NCBI GenBank assembly: GCA_944323035.1
Contig: CALUQY010000013.1
Span: 1-63,387, forward strand
Source: Candidatus Gastranaerophilales bacterium
Lineage (GTDB): Bacteria; Cyanobacteriota; Vampirovibrionia; Gastranaerophilales; Gastranaerophilaceae
DNA: 63,387 nucleotides
Direction of reading: 5' to 3'
The number at the start of each line of letters is the position of its first letter. The first letter of the stretch is position 1. The notes under the pieces are model-generated. The model saw only the letters and a program-made list of their open reading frames with translations, did not search any database and was not told the DNA's origin. Positions 2,834 to 49,977 of this stretch are shown one piece after another. A program made the position numbers and the translations under genes.

Positions 2834-2979
2834 TTAAAGGGGAATTTTCTTTATAAAGGTCAAGGCCTTTTTTAGCTTGTTTAAAAAAACATAATAGAAT
2901 TCCAATTCCTGTTCATTTGCAGAATTTAATATCTGTATGGATTTTACGTAAAACGGATTGTCATTTACTGCAGCTTTTT
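2834..2979 (-). pseudogene. gene fragment abutting repeat copy A
   Basis: A stop-free stretch encodes AVNDNPFYVKSIQILNSANE... and a lysine-rich helix, with no start of its own. On the other side of the repeat (3315 upward, read on the minus strand) is another protein-like stretch (LNKILKTLNLSIEDTG). The two may be parts of one small gene split by the insertion. No family recognised. Confidence 0.3.
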
Positions 2980-3314
2980 GTCCGAGAAAGACTCGCGATA
3001 AGGAACGTGGCGTGAATGAGTTGCGTAGCAACTCCCGCTCACGCAAGCGAGCCTTTTGAGTGGCACTCTGCCGAGCGAAACAATCCAGTGAATTGTTTCG
3101 CGAGAGGTAGACAGCACTCTGCCGAGCAAAACAATCCAGTGAATTGTTTTGTGAGAGGAAAGCGGGTTGACCTGCGTTACCCCGCCTGACAAATCAAAGA
3201 TTTGAAACGGCGGTGATATTATGCTCGCCTGCTCCCCTCGTTCCCACGAGGTGACACCGCGAGCATCGGCTTACGCTTTGAGCAGGGCAAGCAGGCGACG
3301 GAGAACTGCTTTAT
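2980..3314 (-). repeat. modular palindromic repeat, copy A (long form)
   Basis: Canonical orientation runs on the minus strand from AAAGCAGTTCTCC (at 3312) to CTCGGAC (at 2980). It contains the core stem AAAGGCTCGC/GCGAGTCTTT (one G-T wobble), the inner hairpin GAGTTGC/GCAACTC, two tandem CACTCTGCCGAG modules each with an ACAAT/ATTGT hairpin, and a long GC-rich arm shared with copy D. It lies in a degraded region, with the AAAGCAG end facing the gene at 3548, 235 nt away. Confidence 0.85.
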
Positions 3315-3454
3315 TTCAAGATTTAATCCTGTATCTTCAATACTTAAATTAAGAGTTTTCAGTATTTTATTTAAGGTATTATAAGAATTTTATGAGAAAA
3401 TCACTAAGTATAAAATGAAAAATTTGTTTATTGTGTTAAAATTTTAAATTAGTT

Positions 3455-7277: not shown

Positions 7278-7300
7278 ATTAAGACCTCGAAAACTTTAAT

Positions 7301-7452
7301 AAAGCAGTTCTCCGCCACTTCCGCCCCGCTGAACCGCGGGTCGCGCGTGGCTACGCTGTCTAATACGCCACTCAAAAGTTTCGCTTGCGTGAGCGGGAGT
7401 TGCTACGCAACTCATTCACGCCACGTTCCTTATCGCGAAACTTTCTCGGACA
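7301..7452 (+). repeat. modular palindromic repeat, copy B (152 bp)
   Basis: Begins AAAGCAGTTCTCC and ends CTCGGACA. The core stem is AAAGTTTCGC/GCGAAACTTT, perfectly paired and different in sequence from copies C and F. The inner hairpin is GAGTTGC/GCAACTC. The AAAGCAG end faces the start of the HAD gene (7277) 23 nt away. Confidence 0.9.
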
Positions 7453-7581: not shown

Positions 7582-8041
7582 ATGGCAAAAAAATTATTGT
7601 TACTTATACCGTTACTGCTGGTTATTGCAGGAATTGCGCTGGCGGTGCCGGCCAGCACCACAAAAGTTAATAATGGAGGGCTTATGGATAAAAAAGTTTT
7701 AGTTGCATATTTTTCATGGAGCGGTAACACACAATCCATTGCCGAAAAAATTCATAAAAGAGTTGGCGGCGATATATATTGATGAAATAAAAAAAGCAAA
7801 TGTGATTATAGTCGTTGCCGGCATGGAAGGGGCACTGGGCGGAATTATCACAGGACTTGTTGATGTTCCGGTGATAGCTGTGCCGACATCCGTCGGATAC
7901 GGCTCATCCTTCAGTGGGCTTTCTGCCCTTCTTACAATGCTTAACTCCTGCGCAGAAGGTATGACCGTTGTAAATATTGATAACGGGTTCAATGCCGGAT
8001 ACAGCGCAAGCCGGATAAATAGGAAAATAGCGAAAGGATAA
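7582..8041 (+). pseudogene. chimera: flavodoxin N-terminus joined out of frame to larB C-terminus
   Basis: 7582-7782 encodes a hydrophobic leader (LLLLIPLLLVIAGIALA), then the flavodoxin FMN-binding start ([19 protein letters not shown]), and stops at GGDIY. From about 7783, in another frame, comes the C-terminal third of Lar[42 protein letters not shown]. LarB carboxylates and hydrolyses nicotinic acid adenine dinucleotide in the first step of nickel-pincer cofactor synthesis; the N-terminal part of that protein is missing here. A deletion joined the two genes, and both products should be non-functional. The flavodoxin leader has a good Shine-Dalgarno and a regulated promoter. Confidence 0.75.
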
Positions 8042-8044
8042 CTA

Positions 8045-8782
8045 ATGAACTTATACTTTGAATGCAAATCAGGGATTTCAGGTGACATGTCAGTCGCAGC
8101 ATTGCTGGATTTAGGCGCGGACAGGCAAAAACTCGATAGCGCCCTGAAATCAATGAAGCTTGAAAACGAATTCACATATAACATTTCACAGGTTAATATC
8201 AACGCGATAAGAGCAACGGATTTTGATGTAATCCTGCCCGAACATCACCACCACGGGAAACACCATCACCACGAACACCGAAATCTTGATGATGTCAATA
8301 AAATTATAGATAAAACAGATACTACGGAAAATGCAAAAACACTTGCCAAAAAGATTTTCAGAATTGTAGCCGAAGCAGAAGCAAAGGTTCACGCAAAAGA
8401 TATCAAAGACGTACATTTTCACGAAGTCGGTGCTATTGATTCTATTGCGGATATTGTAAGTTTTGCGGTTCTGTTTGACGATTTAGCACCGCAAAAGGTT
8501 TATTTATCTCCTCTGACAGAGGGAACAGGCTTTGTTGAATGCCAGCACGGCAAATTACCGGTTCCGGTACCGGCAGTTTGCGAAATCGCAGCTGCTTATA
8601 AATTACCGCTCAAACTTACAGATAATAATGGTGAAATGGTTACTCCGACAGGTGCTGCTATCGCGGCTGCACTTTATACGGGAGAAACTCTGCCGGAAGA
8701 ATTTATTATAGAAAAAATAGGCTACGGCGCCGGTAAAAGAAAATATGAAAACCCGCTTTTAAGAGTAATGGTTATAAAGTAA
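8045..8782 (+). CDS. larC: LarC nickel insertion protein, LarC1 part only
   Basis: LarC is a CTP-dependent cyclometallase that inserts nickel into the pincer cofactor of lactate racemase. This 245-residue protein starts with ECKSGISGDM, has a histidine-rich stretch (HHHHGKHHHHEH, about residues 61-74), then VHFHEVGAIDSIADI and GNGxMVTPTGAAI-like motifs. It ends (ENPLLRVMVIK) at the point where full-length LarC (about 400 residues) continues into LarC2. In Lactobacillus LarC1 and LarC2 are joined by ribosomal frameshifting; here no LarC2 sequence follows, because the next gene begins 11 nt downstream. It lies 3 nt after the larB remnant, in the same operon. Confidence 0.85.
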   Translation: MNLYFECKSGISGDMSVAALLDLGADRQKLDSALKSMKLENEFTYNISQVNINAIRATDFDVILPEHHHHGKHHHHEHRNLDDVNKIIDKTDTTENAKTLAKKIFRIVAEAEAKVHAKDIKDVHFHEVGAIDSIADIVSFAVLFDDLAPQKVYLSPLTEGTGFVECQHGKLPVPVPAVCEIAAAYKLPLKLTDNNGEMVTPTGAAIAAALYTGETLPEEFIIEKIGYGAGKRKYENPLLRVMVIK

Positions 8783-8793
8783 AGGAGATAAAT

Positions 8794-9864
8794 ATGCACT
8801 TAGGAAATTCAATTATATGTCCCGTAACAGGTATTCCTATGATTATTGCAGCAGGTGCTGCAGCATTCTGGGCATTTAAAAAAAGCAGTTCTCCGTCGCC
8901 TGCTTGCCCTGCTCACGCAGGTCAACCCGCGACTACGCTGTCTAATACGCCACTCAAAAGACTCGCTTGCGTAAGCGGGAGTTGCTCCGTAACTCATTCA
9001 CGACACGTTCCTTATTGCGAGTCTTTCTCGGACAAAAAAACGAAAAAAGATTTTAACAGAGAAAACATTTTACCGACAATCGCTTTGACTTCATTTGTCT
9101 TTGCGCTGCAGATGATTAATTTTTCTATACCTTCAACCGGTTCAAGCGGACATATCGTAGGCGGGCTGCTGCTTGCTGCACTTCTCGGGCCTTATGCCGG
9201 CTTCCTTGCAATCTGTTCCATTTTGCTGATACAGTCCGTATTTTTCGCAGACGGCGGGCTAATGGCTTTAGGATGCAATATTTTTAATATGGGTTTTCTT
9301 GCCTGCTTTGTTGCGTATCCGTTTGTCTATAAACCCCTTGCAGAAAACAGACGCACGGCATTCGGCGCGATTTTAGCTTCAATTATTGCGCTCCAGCTCG
9401 GCTCAATTGCCGTTGTTGCAGAATCTGCCCTGTCAGGTTCTACAAGTGCTGATATCGGGCTTTTTGCAAGTTTAATGCAAAGTATTCACCTTGCAATAGG
9501 TCTTGTTGAAGGCTTATTCACTGCCGCAATTATACTGATTGCACAAAAAACACAGCTTTCAAAGGGGTTTTCTTATACGATTTCCACGCTTTCATTGATT
9601 CTTGCAGGAGTAATCTCACAGTTTGCATCTTCAAAACCGGACGGGCTGGAATGGTCGCTGATTAATATGTCCGATGCTTTCACAGCGCAAACTCAAGGGT
9701 ATATTTATTCAGCATCAGAACTAATACAATCAAAGGCTGCTATATTAGCCCAATTGCCGCCAATTCCGGCGAATATTGCCGGACTGGCTTTGACCGCGTT
9801 ATTGATGATTGCAATATGCAAACTTTTAAGAGGGGAAAAAGCCTCCGTCTATGAACAACAATAA
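8794..9864 (+). CDS. CbiM/NikM-type nickel (or cobalt) ECF transporter component with in-frame repeat insertion
   Basis: This 356-residue multi-spanning membrane protein has the characteristic N-terminus with His2 (MHLGNS...CPVTGIPM), which folds back to bind the metal, and the later motifs FADGGLMALGCNIFNMG and PDGLEWS. The lar neighbourhood makes nickel the likely substrate. Residues about 30-81 are not transporter sequence: they are a 153-bp copy of the dispersed palindromic repeat, exactly 51 codons and stop-free, sitting in the loop after the first membrane helix (before KKDFNRENILPTIALTSF). No ATPase or T component lies nearby. It overlaps larE by 14 nt, indicating translational coupling. 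Confidence 0.85.
   Translation: MHLGNSIICPVTGIPMIIAAGAAAFWAFKKSSSPSPACPAHAGQPATTLSNTPLKRLACVSGSCSVTHSRHVPYCESFSDKKTKKDFNRENILPTIALTSFVFALQMINFSIPSTGSSGHIVGGLLLAALLGPYAGFLAICSILLIQSVFFADGGLMALGCNIFNMGFLACFVAYPFVYKPLAENRRTAFGAILASIIALQLGSIAVVAESALSGSTSADIGLFASLMQSIHLAIGLVEGLFTAAIILIAQKTQLSKGFSYTISTLSLILAGVISQFASSKPDGLEWSLINMSDAFTAQTQGYIYSASELIQSKAAILAQLPPIPANIAGLALTALLMIAICKLLRGEKASVYEQQ
8882..9034 (+). repeat. modular palindromic repeat, copy C, inside a gene
   Basis: Short form, 153 bp, in the coding strand of the nikM/cbiM-like gene. The core stem AAAGACTCGC/GCGAGTCTTT is perfect. Its translation (TPLKRLACVSGS...HSRHVPYCESFSDKK) has no stop, and its length is a multiple of three, so the host reading frame is kept. 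Confidence 0.9.
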
Positions 9865-10636
9865 ATTTTATGAACTCAATAAATACCTGCATACACTGGG
9901 AGAGCAAGGCATTTGCCTTGCTTTTTCCGGCGGCATAGACAGCGCCCTGCTTCTCGTATTATGTAAAAATCTGAATATAACCGCCGTAACATTTCAATCC
10001 CCGCTTCAAACCGAGGAAGAAATTGATTTTACTGCCGATTTTTGTAAAAAATACAACGTCAGCCAAAAAATCATCACGCTTAACCCTCTTGAAGATGATA
10101 AAATTGTTTTAAATCCGAAAGACAGATGTTATTACTGCAAACGATTACTTTTTGAGAGAATTAAGGACTTTGCAGCGGGCATGAAGCTTACAAATATCAT
10201 TGACGGAACAAATTTTGATGATTTAAACGCATACAGACCAGGTTTGAAAGCTTTGCAGGAACTCGGTATTCTCTCCCCGTTTGCCCTTTTTAAGATTACT
10301 AAAGAAGAAATCAGAAGTTATGCAAAATCTCTCGGGCTTGAGATTTTCAATAAACCCTCAACCCCGTGCCTTGCAACACGTTTTCCTTATGACACGCGAT
10401 TAGACCTTGACTCAATTGAGCGCGTTAAAAAGAGTGAAAAATACTTAAAGGGAATCGGATTTACTGAAAACAGGGTTCGTCATCACGGGAATATTGCGCG
10501 GATTGAAATCAGACCGGAAAATTTTACAGAATTTTTACAACACAGCCGTGAAATAAACGCGAAATTTAAACATCTGGGCTTTACCTACGTGACGCTTGAC
10601 ATAGAAGGCCTGCGCAGCGGCAGCATGGACTTATGA
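9851..10636 (+). CDS. larE: LarE, ATP-dependent sulfur transferase of nickel-pincer cofactor synthesis
   Basis: LarE adenylates a carboxylate of the LarB product and adds sulfur. This 261-residue protein has the PP-loop FSGGIDSALL (residues 25-34), a CYYC pair (C93, C96) and the TPCLATRFPY motif with C173, at the position of the sacrificial or cluster-binding cysteine of known LarE proteins. Length and ends look complete (C-terminal LDIEGLRSGSMDL). It overlaps the transporter gene. With larB broken, larC short and larA absent, LarE may be a survivor of a decaying pathway, or may serve a cofactor whose other genes lie elsewhere. Confidence 0.88.
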   Translation: MNNNKFYELNKYLHTLGEQGICLAFSGGIDSALLLVLCKNLNITAVTFQSPLQTEEEIDFTADFCKKYNVSQKIITLNPLEDDKIVLNPKDRCYYCKRLLFERIKDFAAGMKLTNIIDGTNFDDLNAYRPGLKALQELGILSPFALFKITKEEIRSYAKSLGLEIFNKPSTPCLATRFPYDTRLDLDSIERVKKSEKYLKGIGFTENRVRHHGNIARIEIRPENFTEFLQHSREINAKFKHLGFTYVTLDIEGLRSGSMDL

Positions 10637-10715
10637 TTATTCTAGCCGCCTTAACTATATAAAACTGCATAACCGGTTAATATAAATTCCGTATTGAGAT
10701 TTTAATATTAATCGT

Positions 10716-13325
10716 ATGTTAAAAAATATCATAATTTTTGTTACACTTATATCTTTTTTCTACGGTTGTGCGGCCTGTGCACAAAATATCAACGTAGATA
10801 ATTTTGATGAACTTATAACTTCTACCCCGAATAGCGGTGATACAATAACTTTTACCAGAAATTTGGATGCTGATTCTTCAATTGGGAATCACTTTATTAA
10901 TTTGGATATCAACTTCGAGGGGAATAACTATTCTATTTACGGGAATAATGAATTTGGCGGTTTTATTTTAAATCAGGATACACTTTTTCATCAGATTGGT
11001 ATGCGAAACTGTCAGGGACAATCTTACGGGAGTTCAAAATTCGCCGGTGCGATTTACAACAACGGCGGCCAAACGGATATTCAGGATTCCATTTTCAGCG
11101 AAAATTTTACGGATGCAGGCGGATTTAATTTTAGTGTAGGCGGGGCTATTTACAATCTAAATGACGGTTCTATTGATATAAATAACAGCCAATTTATCAA
11201 TAATTATACCTATGGCGGTTCTTCCTACGGCGGCGCGATTGCAAACGGCTACAATTCCGGTACCGAAACCATTATGCACATAAATAATTCTGTATTCAAC
11301 GATAATCATTCCTATGGCAGCGTCACACCTTATGGCGGCGCAATCTATAACAATAGTCAAATATTTATAAGTAACAGCTCTTTAGAAGGTAATTATGCAG
11401 AAGGTGAGGACGGTATTTTCGGCTACGGCGGAGCACTGTATAATCTTGATTATATGAATATTTCAAATTCAACAATAAAAGATAATTACGCAAAAGGCGG
11501 CGAAAACGCTCTGACCTTTGGCGGCGCAATATTTAATGACAAAACACTTATTATAGACAGTTCCCAAATAAGCGGCAACCATACTGATACCCCGTTTTTT
11601 GCAGCCGGTGGTGCTATATTTAATTCAACCAATGCCGCCGCTGAAATAAAAAATTCCACGATTGAAAACAACTATATTTCAACGTCCGCGCAGAATGGAA
11701 ACGGCGGAGCCATTTATAACGCGGGCGTTTTAACCGTTGAAAATACCACTTTCAAAAATAATACCGACCACACCGGCGAATTAAACGATATTTATAACGA
11801 TACAACAGGAACAATAAATTTTGACGGAAACGGTGCAAGCACTATTTTAAGCGGTATTGCCGGAAGCGGCGACATCACTAAACGCGGAAGCGGAAGTTTA
11901 AATCTCGGCGGGAAAAACGAAAATTTTACCGGTAACTTTACACTCGCTAAGGGGGATTTAAACCTGCTTGCCGGTGGAAGCTACTTTAACGCTCAAAATA
12001 CAAGATTCGATAACGGCGTAAATTTTAATATGCAAAACAACGAAATTGACAGCGTAAATTTCGGGGATTTAACATTATCCGGTACAAGCAATATTCAGGC
12101 AGACGTTAATTTAAATAACAATACAATGGATAGAATTAACGCTAATTCTGTCACCGGCACAGGTGATATCTGTGTAAACAGTCTGCTTTTTCAGGGAGAA
12201 GAGTTGAAAGGTAATAATGTTTCTATCCCGTTTGCAGATGCAGCTCTCAAGGATTACGTGAGTTACACCCCTCAGAATGTTGAAACACCAATATTTAATT
12301 ATAGTTCAAGCTATGATTCCGGAAACGGACATTTTAATTTTACACGTGGCGGCTTAAATTCCTCAACCTTTGTACCCGGAGTTGCCGCGCAGCTTGCCGG
12401 ATATCTTACGCAAATCGACACATATAAAAATGTCTTTGCGAATCTTGATATGGTAATGATTACCCCGCCTGATTATGCTAAAGGTTATCATAATAACAAC
12501 AGAGTTGCAAACGCGTCATCCCAATTTTCTTTTTCACCGCTGACAATGCCGGAAAACAGAAACGGCATCTGGTTTAAGCCGTATTCAACATTTGAACGTG
12601 TCGGGCTAAAAAACGGGCCAAGTGTATCAAATGTATCTTACGGAAGTATGTTTGGCGGGGAAAGCGGAGTTGAGAGGATTAAAAACGGCTGGTCGCGAAT
12701 TTACGGGGCATATCTTTCATACAACGGCTCGCATCAGGCTTTTCAGGGAAACAGTATCTATAACAACGGCGGCTTAATCGGTGCGGATGCAGTATTTTAT
12801 AAAGGCAATTTCTTTACCGCATGGACGGCAAATGTCGGTGCTAATTCGGCAGAAGCCTCGACAAAATTCGGACGTGATAATTTTGCCATGTTAAACACAG
12901 GGATTGCCGAAAAAACCGGATATAACTTTGAACTTTTTGAACGCAAACTGATTGTACAGCCCAGCCTTTTGATGTCGTATAGTTTTATAAACACCTTCAA
13001 TTACACGACCCAATCCGGAGTGCACATGGACGCGGATCCGCTGCATGCTATTCATATTGAACCGGAAATAAAATTAATCGGGAATTTTAAAAACTATTTT
13101 CAGCCGTATATAAGTGTTTCAATGGTCTGGAACATTATGGATCAAACGCATTTCAAAGCAAATGATGTTTACCTGCCGGATTTATCGGTTAAACCTTTTG
13201 TGCAGTATGGCGCGGGTATTCAAAAGCGCTGGGGCGAAAGAGTAACCGGATTTCTGGAAGGAATGATACGAAACGGCGGCAGAAACGGTATTGCGTTAAT
13301 GTTCGGATTGCGAATAAGTCTTTAA
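10716..13325 (+). CDS. Pmp-like autotransporter adhesin
   Basis: An 869-residue secreted outer-membrane protein. A signal peptide (residues 1-22, IIIFVTLISFFYGCAACA) precedes a right-handed beta-helix passenger with repeated GGAIYN / FGGAIFN / NSxFxxN units (about residues 100-370), the pattern of chlamydial polymorphic membrane proteins. A linker is followed by an autotransporter barrel of about 265 residues (NGIWFKPYSTFERVG to GIALMFGLRISL). The C-terminus ends on a beta-strand with alternating hydrophobic residues, as barrel assembly requires. It is monocistronic; a weak AT-rich region precedes the ATG. Passenger function is likely adhesion (inference). Confidence 0.85.
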   Translation: MLKNIIIFVTLISFFYGCAACAQNINVDNFDELITSTPNSGDTITFTRNLDADSSIGNHFINLDINFEGNNYSIYGNNEFGGFILNQDTLFHQIGMRNCQGQSYGSSKFAGAIYNNGGQTDIQDSIFSENFTDAGGFNFSVGGAIYNLNDGSIDINNSQFINNYTYGGSSYGGAIANGYNSGTETIMHINNSVFNDNHSYGSVTPYGGAIYNNSQIFISNSSLEGNYAEGEDGIFGYGGALYNLDYMNISNSTIKDNYAKGGENALTFGGAIFNDKTLIIDSSQISGNHTDTPFFAAGGAIFNSTNAAAEIKNSTIENNYISTSAQNGNGGAIYNAGVLTVENTTFKNNTDHTGELNDIYNDTTGTINFDGNGASTILSGIAGSGDITKRGSGSLNLGGKNENFTGNFTLAKGDLNLLAGGSYFNAQNTRFDNGVNFNMQNNEIDSVNFGDLTLSGTSNIQADVNLNNNTMDRINANSVTGTGDICVNSLLFQGEELKGNNVSIPFADAALKDYVSYTPQNVETPIFNYSSSYDSGNGHFNFTRGGLNSSTFVPGVAAQLAGYLTQIDTYKNVFANLDMVMITPPDYAKGYHNNNRVANASSQFSFSPLTMPENRNGIWFKPYSTFERVGLKNGPSVSNVSYGSMFGGESGVERIKNGWSRIYGAYLSYNGSHQAFQGNSIYNNGGLIGADAVFYKGNFFTAWTANVGANSAEASTKFGRDNFAMLNTGIAEKTGYNFELFERKLIVQPSLLMSYSFINTFNYTTQSGVHMDADPLHAIHIEPEIKLIGNFKNYFQPYISVSMVWNIMDQTHFKANDVYLPDLSVKPFVQYGAGIQKRWGERVTGFLEGMIRNGGRNGIALMFGLRISL

Positions 13326-13440
13326 AATACCTATTGATTTTTTTTAGATTTTTGATGTAGAATATATTTATAAATTGAATAAAAACTCCTCGGGACGTAA
13401 GGATGATGTAGTTTTATCATAGGTGCGGCGCGGGGTGTAG

Positions 13441-13557
13441 TATCGGAATGTAGCACTCTGCCGACGAGAACGATTAAGTATCGTTCGAGGAGAGGTGGGA
13501 GCGCACTGCGAAGCAGGCGTTACCAAGCTGCAAATAACAATTAAATATAAAATTTAT
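13441..13557. repeat. palindromic insertion between duplicated tRNA-Pro 5' ends
   Basis: TATCGGAATGTAGC at 13441-13454 is repeated exactly at 13555-13568, the start of tRNA-Pro. Between them lies a CACTCTGCCGA...GAGAGG module (hairpin GAACGAT/ATCGTTC) related to the module in repeat copies A, D and E, and TACCAAGCTGC (13521-13531), an exact inverted copy of the tRNA D-arm (13569-13579). Confidence 0.65.
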
Positions 13558-13631
13558 CGGAATGTAGCGCAGCTTGGTAGCGCACCGTGTTCGGGTCGCG
13601 GGGGTCGCAGGTTCGAATCCTGTCATTCCGA
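13558..13631 (+). tRNA. tRNA-Pro (CGG)
   Basis: Cloverleaf: acceptor CGGAATG/CATTCCG with discriminator A, D-arm GCGC...GCGC, anticodon stem CCGTG/CGCGG around loop TTCGGGT (anticodon CGG), T-arm GCAGG TTCGAAT CCTGT. A T-run follows immediately (ATTTTTTG). Confidence 0.95.
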
Positions 13632-13648
13632 TTTTTTGTCCGAAAAAT

Positions 13649-15019
13649 TTACCCGACAGGCAGGATTATAGAAAATGTTGTTCCCTTATCTATTTCGCTT
13701 TTAACCTCAACGGTTCCGTGATGTAATATTGCGATATTTTTCACGATAGCTAATCCAAGACCTGTACCGCCGGTGGCACGGCTTCTTGCCTTGTCAACCC
13801 GATAAAAACGCTCAAAAATTCTATCAAGATGTTCCGGCGCAATTCCGGCTCCGTAGTCAGTAACATCAATGCGGACATTGCTGTCTGTTTTTGTCAATTT
13901 TACATCAATAATGTCACTATGCGAATATTTATAAGCATTGATTATCAAATTAAGTACAGCCTGCTCAATTAACTGATCATTACCAAATATTTCAATATCA
14001 GCATTGGCGATGAGGTTAATCTTAACCGGTTTAAGATTAAGGTGTAATATCGCGTTATTAATCAATTCATTTAAATTGAATTGCGAAAAATGTTTTTCTT
14101 CATTTGTCTGACTGTCCTCTATTTTAGCTAGAGCCAGAATATCATTAATAAGATTGTTCAGCCGTTTTGCCTGAAAGGCCAGAATATTAAGACAGTCAAC
14201 ATCCTGTTTTTCTGCATAATCATTTTTTGTTTCTAAAAGTTCAACGGCAGAAGTTATGGCTGTCAGAGGAGTTTTAACTTCATGGGAAACATTTGCAATA
14301 AAATCTTTTCGGAATTCTTCGAGCTGACGGAGCCTTATTATCTGATTTTTCAACTTATGCGCCATAATGCTCACCGCGCCTGCCAGTTCGTGCAAAATTC
14401 TGCTTTCGGGCAGTTCAATTTCCGTATCCAGATCGCCTTTGGCAATGCTTACGACCTGTTTTTGCAATGTGTTAAACGGTATCTGGATTTTCAGGACAAT
14501 AAATATCGTACACAGAAGTAAAAATATAAAACTGGACACAAAAAATATAATAATGTTCCACTGCGCTCCGGCCAAAATTTTTACTACCGGAGCTTCGGAA
14601 AGTATCAATTCTATATAGTATTTTGTATTATCGGCAATAACATAGCCGGAATAAACCATATTTTTTTCTTTAAGACGCAGTGCATTTGAACGAGTAATAA
14701 CACCTTCCGGGATTTTTTCTTCAGGTTTAGAATCCGCTATTACATTTTTTCTATCCCCGTCCAGAACTCTTATTCTGAAATCAGGATCATCTTTAAAATC
14801 TTCGCAATAACTTTTAACTATATCAAAATCTTTAGTAGCAAGATACGGTTTAAGCGCCCATTCAACCTGTTTATAAAAAATTCTTATCTCTGAATGTTCC
14901 TCTTTCATATACGAACTATTAAAATCTATAATATGATTCAACGTCATAAGTACAGAAATTAAAACGAACACTGCACCGTATAACGGTAAAGAGATTAAGA
15001 ATTTATCGCGTTTTTTCAT
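13649..15019 (-). CDS. sensor histidine kinase (PhoR-like)
   Basis: A 456-residue membrane kinase. It has two membrane helices (about residues 9-27 and 155-176) enclosing a periplasmic sensor of about 125 residues, a HAMP-like linker (IPFNTLQKQVVSIAKGDL), an HisKA box with the phosphorylated histidine (FIANVSHEVKTPLTAI), and an ATPase domain with N box (LIINAYKYSH), G1 DYGAGI and G2 GGTGLGLAIVKNI. Its gene lies 6 nt after the response regulator gene in transcription order, forming a standard two-component operon. The sensed signal is not evident. The layout resembles PhoR/NblS-type kinases. Confidence 0.9.
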   Translation of the reverse strand: MKKRDKFLISLPLYGAVFVLISVLMTLNHIIDFNSSYMKEEHSEIRIFYKQVEWALKPYLATKDFDIVKSYCEDFKDDPDFRIRVLDGDRKNVIADSKPEEKIPEGVITRSNALRLKEKNMVYSGYVIADNTKYYIELILSEAPVVKILAGAQWNIIIFFVSSFIFLLLCTIFIVLKIQIPFNTLQKQVVSIAKGDLDTEIELPESRILHELAGAVSIMAHKLKNQIIRLRQLEEFRKDFIANVSHEVKTPLTAITSAVELLETKNDYAEKQDVDCLNILAFQAKRLNNLINDILALAKIEDSQTNEEKHFSQFNLNELINNAILHLNLKPVKINLIANADIEIFGNDQLIEQAVLNLIINAYKYSHSDIIDVKLTKTDSNVRIDVTDYGAGIAPEHLDRIFERFYRVDKARSRATGGTGLGLAIVKNIAILHHGTVEVKSEIDKGTTFSIILPVG

Positions 15020-15025
15020 TCATTG

Positions 15026-15721
15026 CTAACTTTCTTCTTTTAATTTATACCCTACACCGCGGACTGTCAAAATATTTGCGCCGAAATCCCCTAATTTTTT
15101 ACGAAGGTTAACAATCTGAACGTCAATAGCTCTTTCTGCAATATCGAACCCGTCGTCCCCTCTTAAAACATTTAAAAGCTGCGAGCGCGAATACACCCTG
15201 CCGGGATTTTGAACGAAAAGTTTCATTATCTCAAATTCACTGTAGGTGAGATTAACTTCCTTACCGTTAAGTTTTGCCACCTGCGTACCGGAATTTATTG
15301 AGAATTCCTTGTAGAATATTGTGTCAGACTGACTGTCAACCATACCGTTTGAAAGCTGTGCCCGGATTCTTGCAAGCAAAACCTTGTTGCTGAAAGGTTT
15401 GGTAATGTAATCAATTGCTCCGTTTTCAAAGCCTTGCAATACATCTTCCTCAAGACGTCTTGCCGTTAGCATAATAATTTTTACAGCATTGAACCTCGGG
15501 TTATGTTTGATATGCTTGCACAAAGTCAGTCCGTCCATCCCCGGAAGCATTACATCCAAAAGCACAATCTCCGGCATCCATTGCTCAATGATATTAAGGG
15601 CGGTTATCCCGTCACCGGCGAACTTAACATTGTTGAACCCGCCGGAACTAAGTACCATACCAATTAACTGGCTGATACTTTCCTCATCTTCCACTACTAA
15701 AATTTTACTATTCTCTATCAT
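15026..15721 (-). CDS. OmpR/PhoB-family response regulator
   Basis: A 231-residue protein with a receiver domain (acidic pocket VVEDEE, phospho-acceptor in IVLLDVMLPGMDG, conserved Lys in YITKPFSNKVL) and a C-terminal winged-helix DNA-binding domain (LTYSEFEIMKLFVQNPGRVYSR ... IDVQIVNLRKKLG ... VRGVGYKL). It is the first gene of the two-component operon with the kinase downstream. The receiver is complete, so it should be phosphorylated by that kinase. Targets unknown. Confidence 0.93.
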   Translation of the reverse strand: MIENSKILVVEDEESISQLIGMVLSSGGFNNVKFAGDGITALNIIEQWMPEIVLLDVMLPGMDGLTLCKHIKHNPRFNAVKIIMLTARRLEEDVLQGFENGAIDYITKPFSNKVLLARIRAQLSNGMVDSQSDTIFYKEFSINSGTQVAKLNGKEVNLTYSEFEIMKLFVQNPGRVYSRSQLLNVLRGDDGFDIAERAIDVQIVNLRKKLGDFGANILTVRGVGYKLKEES

Positions 15722-15843
15722 ATTATTAATAATATATTACAACATTATTAGTATTTTGTTAATATCCCTGATAACTAGCTTTGCAGAGAATAATAAATAA
15801 ATGTCTTTCCGTCAAAATACTGACAAAAGAAAGGCGGTACAAA

Positions 15844-16353
15844 ATGATTAGTCAAAAACTTGAAAAAGCTTTAAATGAACAGCTTAACTATGAACTCTAT
15901 TCGGCATATCTCTATTTTTCTATGAAAGCATATTTTTCTAAAAGTGCCTGGTGTGGCTTTCGTCAATGGATGTGCGTTCAGGCCCACGAAGAAATGGAAC
16001 ATGCTATGGGAATTTTTCACTACTTAATCGAACGCTGCGGAACGGTGGAACTTGAACCGATTGCAAAGCCCGAACACGAATGGCCAGACGCACTTGCGGT
16101 TTTTGAAGCAGCTTACAACCACGAAAAAACGGTTACGGCAAAGATTAACGAACTGTTTGACATTATGGAAGAAGAAAAAGACCGTGCGGCTCTATCATTC
16201 CTCGATTGGTATTTAAAAGAACAGGTTGAAGAAGAACGCAATGCAAAAGTAATTTTAGAAAAATTAAAATTCATCGGTGAGGACAAAACCGCTCTCATGA
16301 TGCTTAATGAAGATTTGATGAAAAGAGAAATTCACCAGCACGATATTAAATAA
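15844..16353 (+). CDS. bacterial ferritin
   Basis: This 169-residue iron-storage protein forms four-helix subunits that oxidise Fe(II) and store iron as a ferric core. Di-iron ligands are visible in NEQLNYELYSAYLYF and HEEMEHAMG, with further Glu in KEQVEEERNAKVI. The start at 15844 is chosen because AAAGGCGG lies just upstream and the protein begins MISQKLEKALNEQ, as ferritins do. A strong terminator follows at 16375. Confidence 0.93.
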   Translation: MISQKLEKALNEQLNYELYSAYLYFSMKAYFSKSAWCGFRQWMCVQAHEEMEHAMGIFHYLIERCGTVELEPIAKPEHEWPDALAVFEAAYNHEKTVTAKINELFDIMEEEKDRAALSFLDWYLKEQVEEERNAKVILEKLKFIGEDKTALMMLNEDLMKREIHQHDIK

Positions 16354-16374
16354 GGTGCTGAAGCCTTATAATAA

Positions 16375-23435: not shown

Positions 23436-23443
23436 GGCGATAT

Positions 23444-23738
23444 AAAGCAGTTCTCCGTCGCCTGCTTGCCCTGCTCAAAGCGTAAGCCGATGCTCGCGGT
23501 GTCACCTCGTGGGAACGAGGGGAGCAGGCGAGCATAATATCACCGCCGTTTCAAATCTTTGATTTGTCAGGCGGGGTAACGCAGGTCAACCTGCTTTCCT
23601 CTCGAAAAACAGTTCACTGGACTGTTTTTCTCGGCAGAGTGCTGTCTAATACGCCACTCAAAAGGCTCGCTTGCGTGAGCGGGAGTTGCTTCGCAACTCA
23701 TTCACGCCACGTTCCTTATCGCGAGTCTTTCTCGGGCA
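23444..23738 (+). repeat. modular palindromic repeat, copy D (295 bp)
   Basis: Contains AAAGCAGTTCTCC, the long GC-rich arm shared with copy A (including GTTCCCACGAGG-type and CTTTGATTTGTC stretches), one module with hairpin AACAGT/ACTGTT, and the core stem AAAGGCTCGC/GCGAGTCTTT with a G-T wobble. The AAAGCAG end faces the toxin gene 43 nt away. Confidence 0.9.
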
Positions 23739-25036: not shown

Positions 25037-25077
25037 GATTTATATCTCTTACTCTTACAAGGCATGAACTACATTAT

Positions 25078-25271
25078 AAAGCAGTCCTCCGTCGCCTGCT
25101 TGCCCTGCTCCCGCAGGTCAACCCTCTTACCTCTCACAAAACAATTCACTGGATTGTTTTGCTCGGCAGAGTGCTGTCTAATACGTCACTCAAAAGTTTC
25201 GCTTGCGTGAGCGGGAGCTGCTACGCAACTCATTCATGCTTGCGTTCCTTGTCGCGAAACTTTCTCGGACA
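25078..25271 (+). repeat. modular palindromic repeat, copy E (194 bp)
   Basis: AAAGCAGTCCTCC start, one module with CAAAACAAT/ATTGTTTTG hairpin and CTCGGCAGAGTG, core stem AAAGTTTCGC/GCGAAACTTT (same version as copy B) and CTCGGACA end. The AAAGCAG end faces yggS. Confidence 0.9.
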
Positions 25272-49750: not shown

Positions 49751-49848
49751 CAGTATTATATTGACATATCTTTGAATATATGTTAATATTATGAATAAAT
49801 ACTCATAAATATGATGTATTAATGGAGAAAAGTTTAACAAAATTTACT

Positions 49849-49962
49849 GTCCGAGAAAGACTCGCGATAAGGAACGTGAGCGAGTCTTTTGAGTGGCGTA
49901 TTAGACAGCGCAGCCGCTAACGGCTCGCGGTTCAGCGAGGCGGTGCGGCGGAGAACTGCTTT
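49849..49962 (-). repeat. modular palindromic repeat, copy F (short form, 114 bp)
   Basis: The core stem AAAGACTCGC/GCGAGTCTTT is perfect, but the inner hairpin (GAGTTGC/GCAACTC) is deleted. The AAAGCAG end faces the gene at 49978 only 15 nt away. Confidence 0.85.
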
Positions 49963-49977
49963 ATTGAAAGGAGCAGT

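Follow-up and report, generated by a model that had tools for sequence, protein, structure and literature searches.

The insertion in the nikM gene of this Candidatus Gastranaerophilales genome very probably belongs to a family of non-autonomous selfish hairpin elements, which behaves like the Rickettsia palindromic elements (RPEs), is spreading in one genus of the Gastranaerophilaceae and is tolerated inside working proteins. The likeness to RPEs had already been drawn in the original prediction, made from the letters of the window (the whole stretch of 63,387 nucleotides analysed here), and our results bear it out by in-frame copies of the same element in MurD, RqcH, ThiL, the purine nucleoside phosphorylase PNP and a 5'-nucleotidase, for the first four of which orthologues with an empty site are found. 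Heavy in-frame colonisation by palindromic repeats has so far been a speciality of Rickettsia, together with a report from Wolbachia, and could there be attributed to intracellular life. The case of these gut bacteria suggests that such colonisation is not tied to the Rickettsia/Wolbachia group, because clean insertions in MurD, RqcH, ThiL and PNP are accompanied by empty sites in close relatives. Moreover, the family provides natural before-and-after pairs in which the response of proteins to 22-52 foreign residues can be studied, and it is one in which the mode of movement of such elements could be discovered.

The element copy inside nikM

The host gene encodes a NikM/CbiM-like protein, which matches the Pfam family CbiM (E 1.2e-43) as well as the solved CbiM structures 4m58 and 4m5b. 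The gene and its insertion, named copy C, have the following parts:

8794..9864, + strand: host gene, nikM/cbiM-like, substrate-binding protein of an ECF transporter, 356 aa including the insert
8878..8884, + strand: A-run at the left junction of copy C; this and the A-run of the right end are jointly compatible with a 6-bp target duplication, an ambiguous reading in homopolymeric sequence
8879..9034, + strand: copy C, complete and in frame in nikM (repeat match, covariance model 125.8 bits, orthologue alignment)
8885..8941, + strand: 5' hairpin domain of copy C, with an inner hairpin (P1 8885-8889/8937-8941; P2 8895-8899/8929-8933)
8957..9026, + strand: 3' hairpin domain of copy C (P4 AAAGACTCGC (8957-8966) / GCGAGTCTTT (9017-9026))
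8979..8995, + strand: optional inner hairpin module GAGTTGC-TCC-GTAACTC, missing from the 108- and 120-bp copies

That a repeat lies at this place in nikM, as predicted, is far from chance, for copy C matches dozens of places in the same genome by BLAST with E values of 1e-75 to 1e-28. In 12 aligned orthologues of the family WAFKKA joins KKDF directly, where NikM here has 52 additional residues between them, and this alignment, which had been set in advance as the test of the prediction, gives a single clean empty point in all 12. The insertion site follows WAFKK of helix 1 and precedes (A/T)(K/R)KDF ahead of the next helix. As measured against the orthologues the net gain is 156 bp or 52 codons (an equivalent shift within the A-run is possible), so an insert was rightly called while its size of 153 bp and 51 codons was not, and the description as a single palindrome is to be given up, as copy C consists of two hairpin domains instead. 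The host frame was correctly read as free of stops through copy C, nikM being open throughout. Its proposed location in the loop after the first membrane helix agrees with the orthologue flanks and also with a 13-sequence AlphaFold model, in which residues 38-81 of NikM are mostly coil with pLDDT below 50, between the helices 5-32 and 89-111; the model has a mean pLDDT of 69, i.e. moderate confidence, and among PDB folds 4m5b and 4m58 are once more the closest to it.

Family, structure and precise insertion of the element

With the 153-bp query at least 57 pieces were matched in this genome (a MAG of 1.94 Mb in 41 contigs), and each of the seven genomes of the genus has matches. We extracted 128 candidate copies with two ends, 51 of them from this genome, and discarded five for wrong bounds; the extracted set together with about a dozen places from the covariance search amounts to at least about 60 copies in this genome. 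The covariance model detects the family in 22 of 117 genomes of the Gastranaerophilaceae and in 10 of 41 genera, namely its own genus and nine other sampled genera, and distant genera retain the 3' domain but have a different 5' domain. A search for carriage of the element by phages or plasmids gave no matches. With the ends AGCAGTTCTCCG ... TTTCTCGGAC, the element has a size of about 105-350 bp and consists of a 5' hairpin domain, optional middle modules and a 3' hairpin domain; the commonest lengths are 108, 120, 156 and 183 bp, and longer modular forms occur too. The majority of copies lie between genes or at the ends of genes. Besides copy C, the window holds these:

2978..3315, - strand: long-form copy with tandem hairpin modules
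7298..7452, + strand: intergenic copy, upstream of the larB remnant
23441..23738, + strand: long-form copy, common to the sister genome G004, with a direct repeat ATATAA (6 bp) at its ends
25075..25271, + strand: copy whose site is empty in G004
49848..49965, - strand: short copy, common to G004

The element is modular, because its 5' domain varies in distant genera and is also found by itself, in units of about 60-65 bp. This solitary 5' hairpin domain (AGCAG...GCTGTC) is seen at many places, for example L124, L126, L130, L145, L146, L154 and L155, and it may be a separate mobile unit. At two loci this genome has a short 5' part and G004 a long one, with the 3' domain near-identical (L043 3910-4065/L092 2964-3244, and window 8879-9034/L076 17583-17915); the insertions are the same with differing 5' lengths, and therefore internal modules have been swapped or lost in place.

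As for the structure, three stems are paired in 98.7% of the cells of 39 aligned short copies, and pairing is only 29-45% in a control with the partners shifted by 1-3 columns. In these copies 11 of the 20 pairs are altered on both sides, with 86 two-sided cells against four one-sided ones, and stem P4 has two-sided changes across copies in seven of its ten pairs. The ends of the element are unpaired and form no terminal inverted repeat. Since one-sided G-U intermediates are nearly absent, these data suggest that pairing matters in the DNA, or else that both arms are renewed jointly through template switching.

The insertion of the element is precise. Opposite the copies at window 25075-25271, L046 and L072, empty sites are found in G004, which is about 95% identical to this genome over most aligned stretches; the reciprocal case of a copy in G004 and an empty site in this genome is found as well, and the RqcH copy of G004 faces empty sequence here. 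Copies with an AATAA end have no target duplication, AATAA belonging to the element and being absent from the empty target, and those with a TTAAA end have no duplication either. Among 45 copies whose left ends are of other kinds, direct repeats (up to 6 bp) are commoner than in shuffled controls, with a mean of 2.56 compared with 1.59, and none of 2000 shuffles was as high; for instance, 6-bp junction repeats are GGCGAA in RqcH and AACAAA in MurD. The two junction classes cannot be brought under one simple mechanism: the first has a fixed AATAA or TTAAA end and no duplication, and in the second some copies have 6-bp duplications.

Copies within reading frames and competing explanations

The peptide SSSPSPACPAHAGQP..., which was expected to be recurrent, is indeed found again in other proteins of the genome and of the genus; compared with Pfam and PDB it has no match of note. 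MurD in the genome G006 has gained 36 codons near its N-terminus (flank and insert join as MELNNK/SCSPSPACPANAGQPATAQSNTPLK) and is the sole match above the murD cut-off there; RqcH/NFACT in G004 has gained 40 codons and ThiL in G001 about 35, each being the sole match in its genome; and PNP of this genome has gained 22 codons from the 5' domain alone, its uninserted orthologue in G004 sharing 98% identity across most of the remaining sequence. Uninserted orthologues exist for all of NikM, MurD, RqcH, ThiL and PNP. Further sense in-frame copies lie in the 5'-nucleotidase of G006 and near the C-terminus of a membrane protein of G001 (no Pfam match, named by eye), and antisense in-frame copies lie in a 4Fe-4S membrane protein of G001, in a transporter-like frame of 802 codons in G004 and in a glycoside-hydrolase-like frame in G006, the latter two again with no Pfam match and named by eye. 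Moreover, TrmFO of this genome (L243 307-1722, G000:C4) has a C-terminal extension of which about 35 residues are encoded by the element. Gene-breaking copies are present too, in an aldo-keto reductase gene of G004 and in the sole Y1 transposase gene of this genome (G000).

All seven sense insertions (NikM, MurD, RqcH, ThiL, PNP, the 5'-nucleotidase and the membrane protein of G001) are in the SSSPSPACPAxAGQP frame, in which the AATAAA end would give a TAA stop, and the seven copies have other triplets. The dN/dS values of the inserted hosts are 0.053-0.088 for MurD, 0.057-0.065 for RqcH, 0.11-0.15 for ThiL and 0.04-0.11 for PNP, uninserted pairs being similar; at the level of codon substitutions, these four genes are shown to be still under purifying selection with the insert. 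When lengths and open frames are weighed, the probability of an in-frame, open insertion is 0.144 for a copy placed at random; among the clear intragenic copies about 8 of 12-14 are of this kind (binomial p about 5e-5 to 2e-4, or 0.002 if 7 of 14), in a post hoc classification of a small number. The excess over the expected value of about 14% is supportive and not conclusive, because the classification followed inspection.

Compared with these hosts, the NikM copy is the weakest case for tolerance and poor evidence of it, because larB is truncated here and the sister nikM is a pseudogene. The gene order larB-larC-nikM-larE is the arrangement of a nickel-pincer cofactor operon, whose other members in the window are as follows:

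7703..8041, + strand: larB remnant, LarB 127-208 only, behind a flavodoxin N-terminus
8045..8782, + strand: larC, 245 aa, of family-normal length
9851..10636, + strand: larE, intact

At window 7582-8041 a deletion has fused the flavodoxin start to the last third of larB, the intervening genes being lost too, and another deletion has affected this larB/flavodoxin region in G004. A search of ten genomes found no larA. We gave up the thought that larC, too, is shortened, 240-256 aa being usual in relatives. In the nikM pseudogene of G004 the N-terminus is gone and the element stands at the same place as a long form with stops; the C-terminus of the aldo-keto reductase is fused there to about codon 22 of nikM (L010/L039, G004:C2 about 152500-153700), and the reductase gene is the one which itself holds a frame-breaking copy. 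The lar/nikM block has about 82% identity to G004, against 95% elsewhere. Window 8949-16000, which starts at the nikM element, is mostly about 78-90% identical to G004, with most of the remaining sequence at about 95%, and such a mosaic block suggests recombination. Because the lar/nikM block is so unusually diverged, part of the NikM divergence may predate the insertion, perhaps being brought by recombination. NikM with the insert may be functional. The earlier expectation that extra residues would be tolerated here finds little support in the NikM copy, which lies in a decaying operon, and draws its support from the same element in other proteins.

It is unlikely, in our opinion, that NikM retains the copy merely as a dead or dying gene, which would mean that functional proteins do not tolerate the element and that the open frame is a matter of luck. 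Such a reading gains from the truncated larB, from the G004 nikM with its lost N-terminus and its stop-bearing long form, and from the strong divergence of the block between both genomes; however, the NikM codons downstream of the insert have a dN/dS of 0.154 between this genome and G004, a value part of which may be pre-insertion or recombinant, and, as the chief point, the same element lies in frame in MurD, RqcH, ThiL and PNP, where the frames are intact and constrained. NikM taken alone may be a dying gene. The strong conserved hairpins could also mean that the insert never reaches the protein, the element being removed from the mRNA as an intron is (by self-splicing or processing) or bypassed by the ribosome in the manner of the mitochondrial byp elements. 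We consider this very improbable, as removal from the RNA would impose no frame constraint, yet stop-free in-frame copies within conserved genes exceed the 14% expected, and the seven sense insertions into named genes all use a single frame; moreover, a known RNA family was rejected, the element having no Rfam match at the gathering level (window) or even at E<=1.

The high copy number, the hairpins, the AATAA class without duplication and a single Y1_Tnp gene that neighbours a copy would suit a REPIN/BIME with a RAYT (Y1 HUH transposase) as its mobiliser, or a miniature element derived from IS200/IS605. Such an origin is largely refuted and deserves hardly any credence, since Y1_Tnp occurs in just one of the seven genus genomes and is interrupted there by the element (L067 2014-2572, G000:C23 about 15813-16370), no intact RAYT gene being found among the seven, and since AATAA is missing from the empty sites, contrary to an IS605 target, and a subset of copies has 6-bp duplications. 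Both the RAYT/Y1 transposase as mobiliser and an IS605-like insertion with AATAA as target were rejected on these grounds. Genes of about 700 bp near several copies were also considered as transposases, and turned out to be pilin-like proteins (named by eye); no mobilising enzyme was found, nor any gene-carrying (autonomous) element with the same ends in the sequence stretches examined. Covariation and the mostly intergenic sites would likewise be expected if the element were a transcription terminator or a structured regulatory RNA, repeated by chance, and not a mobile selfish element. The chance of this being right is very small, considering the filled and empty sites between close relatives, the insertions into essential genes in either orientation, the lack of a T-run 3' of the stem and, again, of any Rfam match, and the missing one-sided (G-U) intermediates, which fit DNA pairing better than RNA pairing.

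Returning to the selfish hairpin element, which we prefer, a non-autonomous hairpin element would spread through the genomes of the genus via precise insertion, with a putative mobilising enzyme that probably recognises DNA hairpins. Its hydrophilic sense frame (SSSPSPACPAxAGQP...) or open antisense frame, along with a length divisible by three, would leave the gene still readable, and the cell would tolerate the resulting loop, which measures about 22-52 residues and, for one antisense copy, 87; because the gene stays readable and the loop is tolerated, such copies would persist even in essential genes. The fusion proteins would presumably be made, for which dN/dS serves as a proxy, and the inserted peptide would be near neutral. 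A further step, which we put forward tentatively and think rather doubtful, is that the family is adapted to coding sequence, by a preferred hydrophilic sense frame, lengths that are mostly multiples of three, a terminal triplet whose variation does away with the TAA stop of the commonest form, and frame-preserving 6-bp junctions, and in this way colonises essential genes of gut bacteria far from Rickettsiales.

Comparison with known systems

In the literature, largely that available without subscription, we found no description of such an element in the Gastranaerophilales lineage. REPINs are mostly extragenic and are tied to a RAYT gene; the present family resembles them as high-copy palindromic repeats of bacterial chromosomes, but has no intact RAYT. 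It differs from IS200/IS605 elements in that AATAA is borne by the element and is not a target present in the empty site, and from MITEs in the absence of terminal inverted repeats. As to target duplications, it has 6-bp ones in a subset and none in the AATAA and TTAAA classes. ERIC/RU-1, YPAL/RU-2 and Correia/NEMIS are structured repeats of about 100-200 bp, some with in-frame ORF fusions (PMC2229807), but they mostly have terminal inverted repeats and target duplications, whereas the Gastranaerophilales element lacks the former and has the latter in a subset.

Heavy in-frame insertion is described for Rickettsia, together with a report for Wolbachia and scattered in-frame fusions of elements from enterobacteria (PMC2229807, PMC10969869). 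The protein-coding palindromic repeats of Wolbachia (Ogata et al. 2005), as far as they are cited in PMC2229807, are RPE-like and in frame outside Rickettsia, also within Rickettsiales. RPEs themselves are dispersed, hairpin-forming repeats of 105-146 bp lying in frame in conserved protein genes, where they encode a recurrent peptide (PMC2229807, PMC10969869), and they have a long stem-loop with 12-bp terminal inverted repeats (PMC2229807). In contrast to this single stem-loop, the element described here has two hairpin domains and unpaired ends, and it further differs by swappable modules (105-350 bp), some antisense in-frame insertions and 6-bp direct repeats in a subset, as well as by its occurrence in another phylum and not in Rickettsiales. 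It is not an RPE by membership, being set apart from the published descriptions by the other phylum, the two hairpin domains and the lack of a terminal inverted repeat; what it has in common with RPEs is the character of a lineage-bound dispersed family of similar size, its longer modular forms apart, which forms hairpins, lies in frame in conserved genes and adds a peptide read in the same frame to unrelated proteins.
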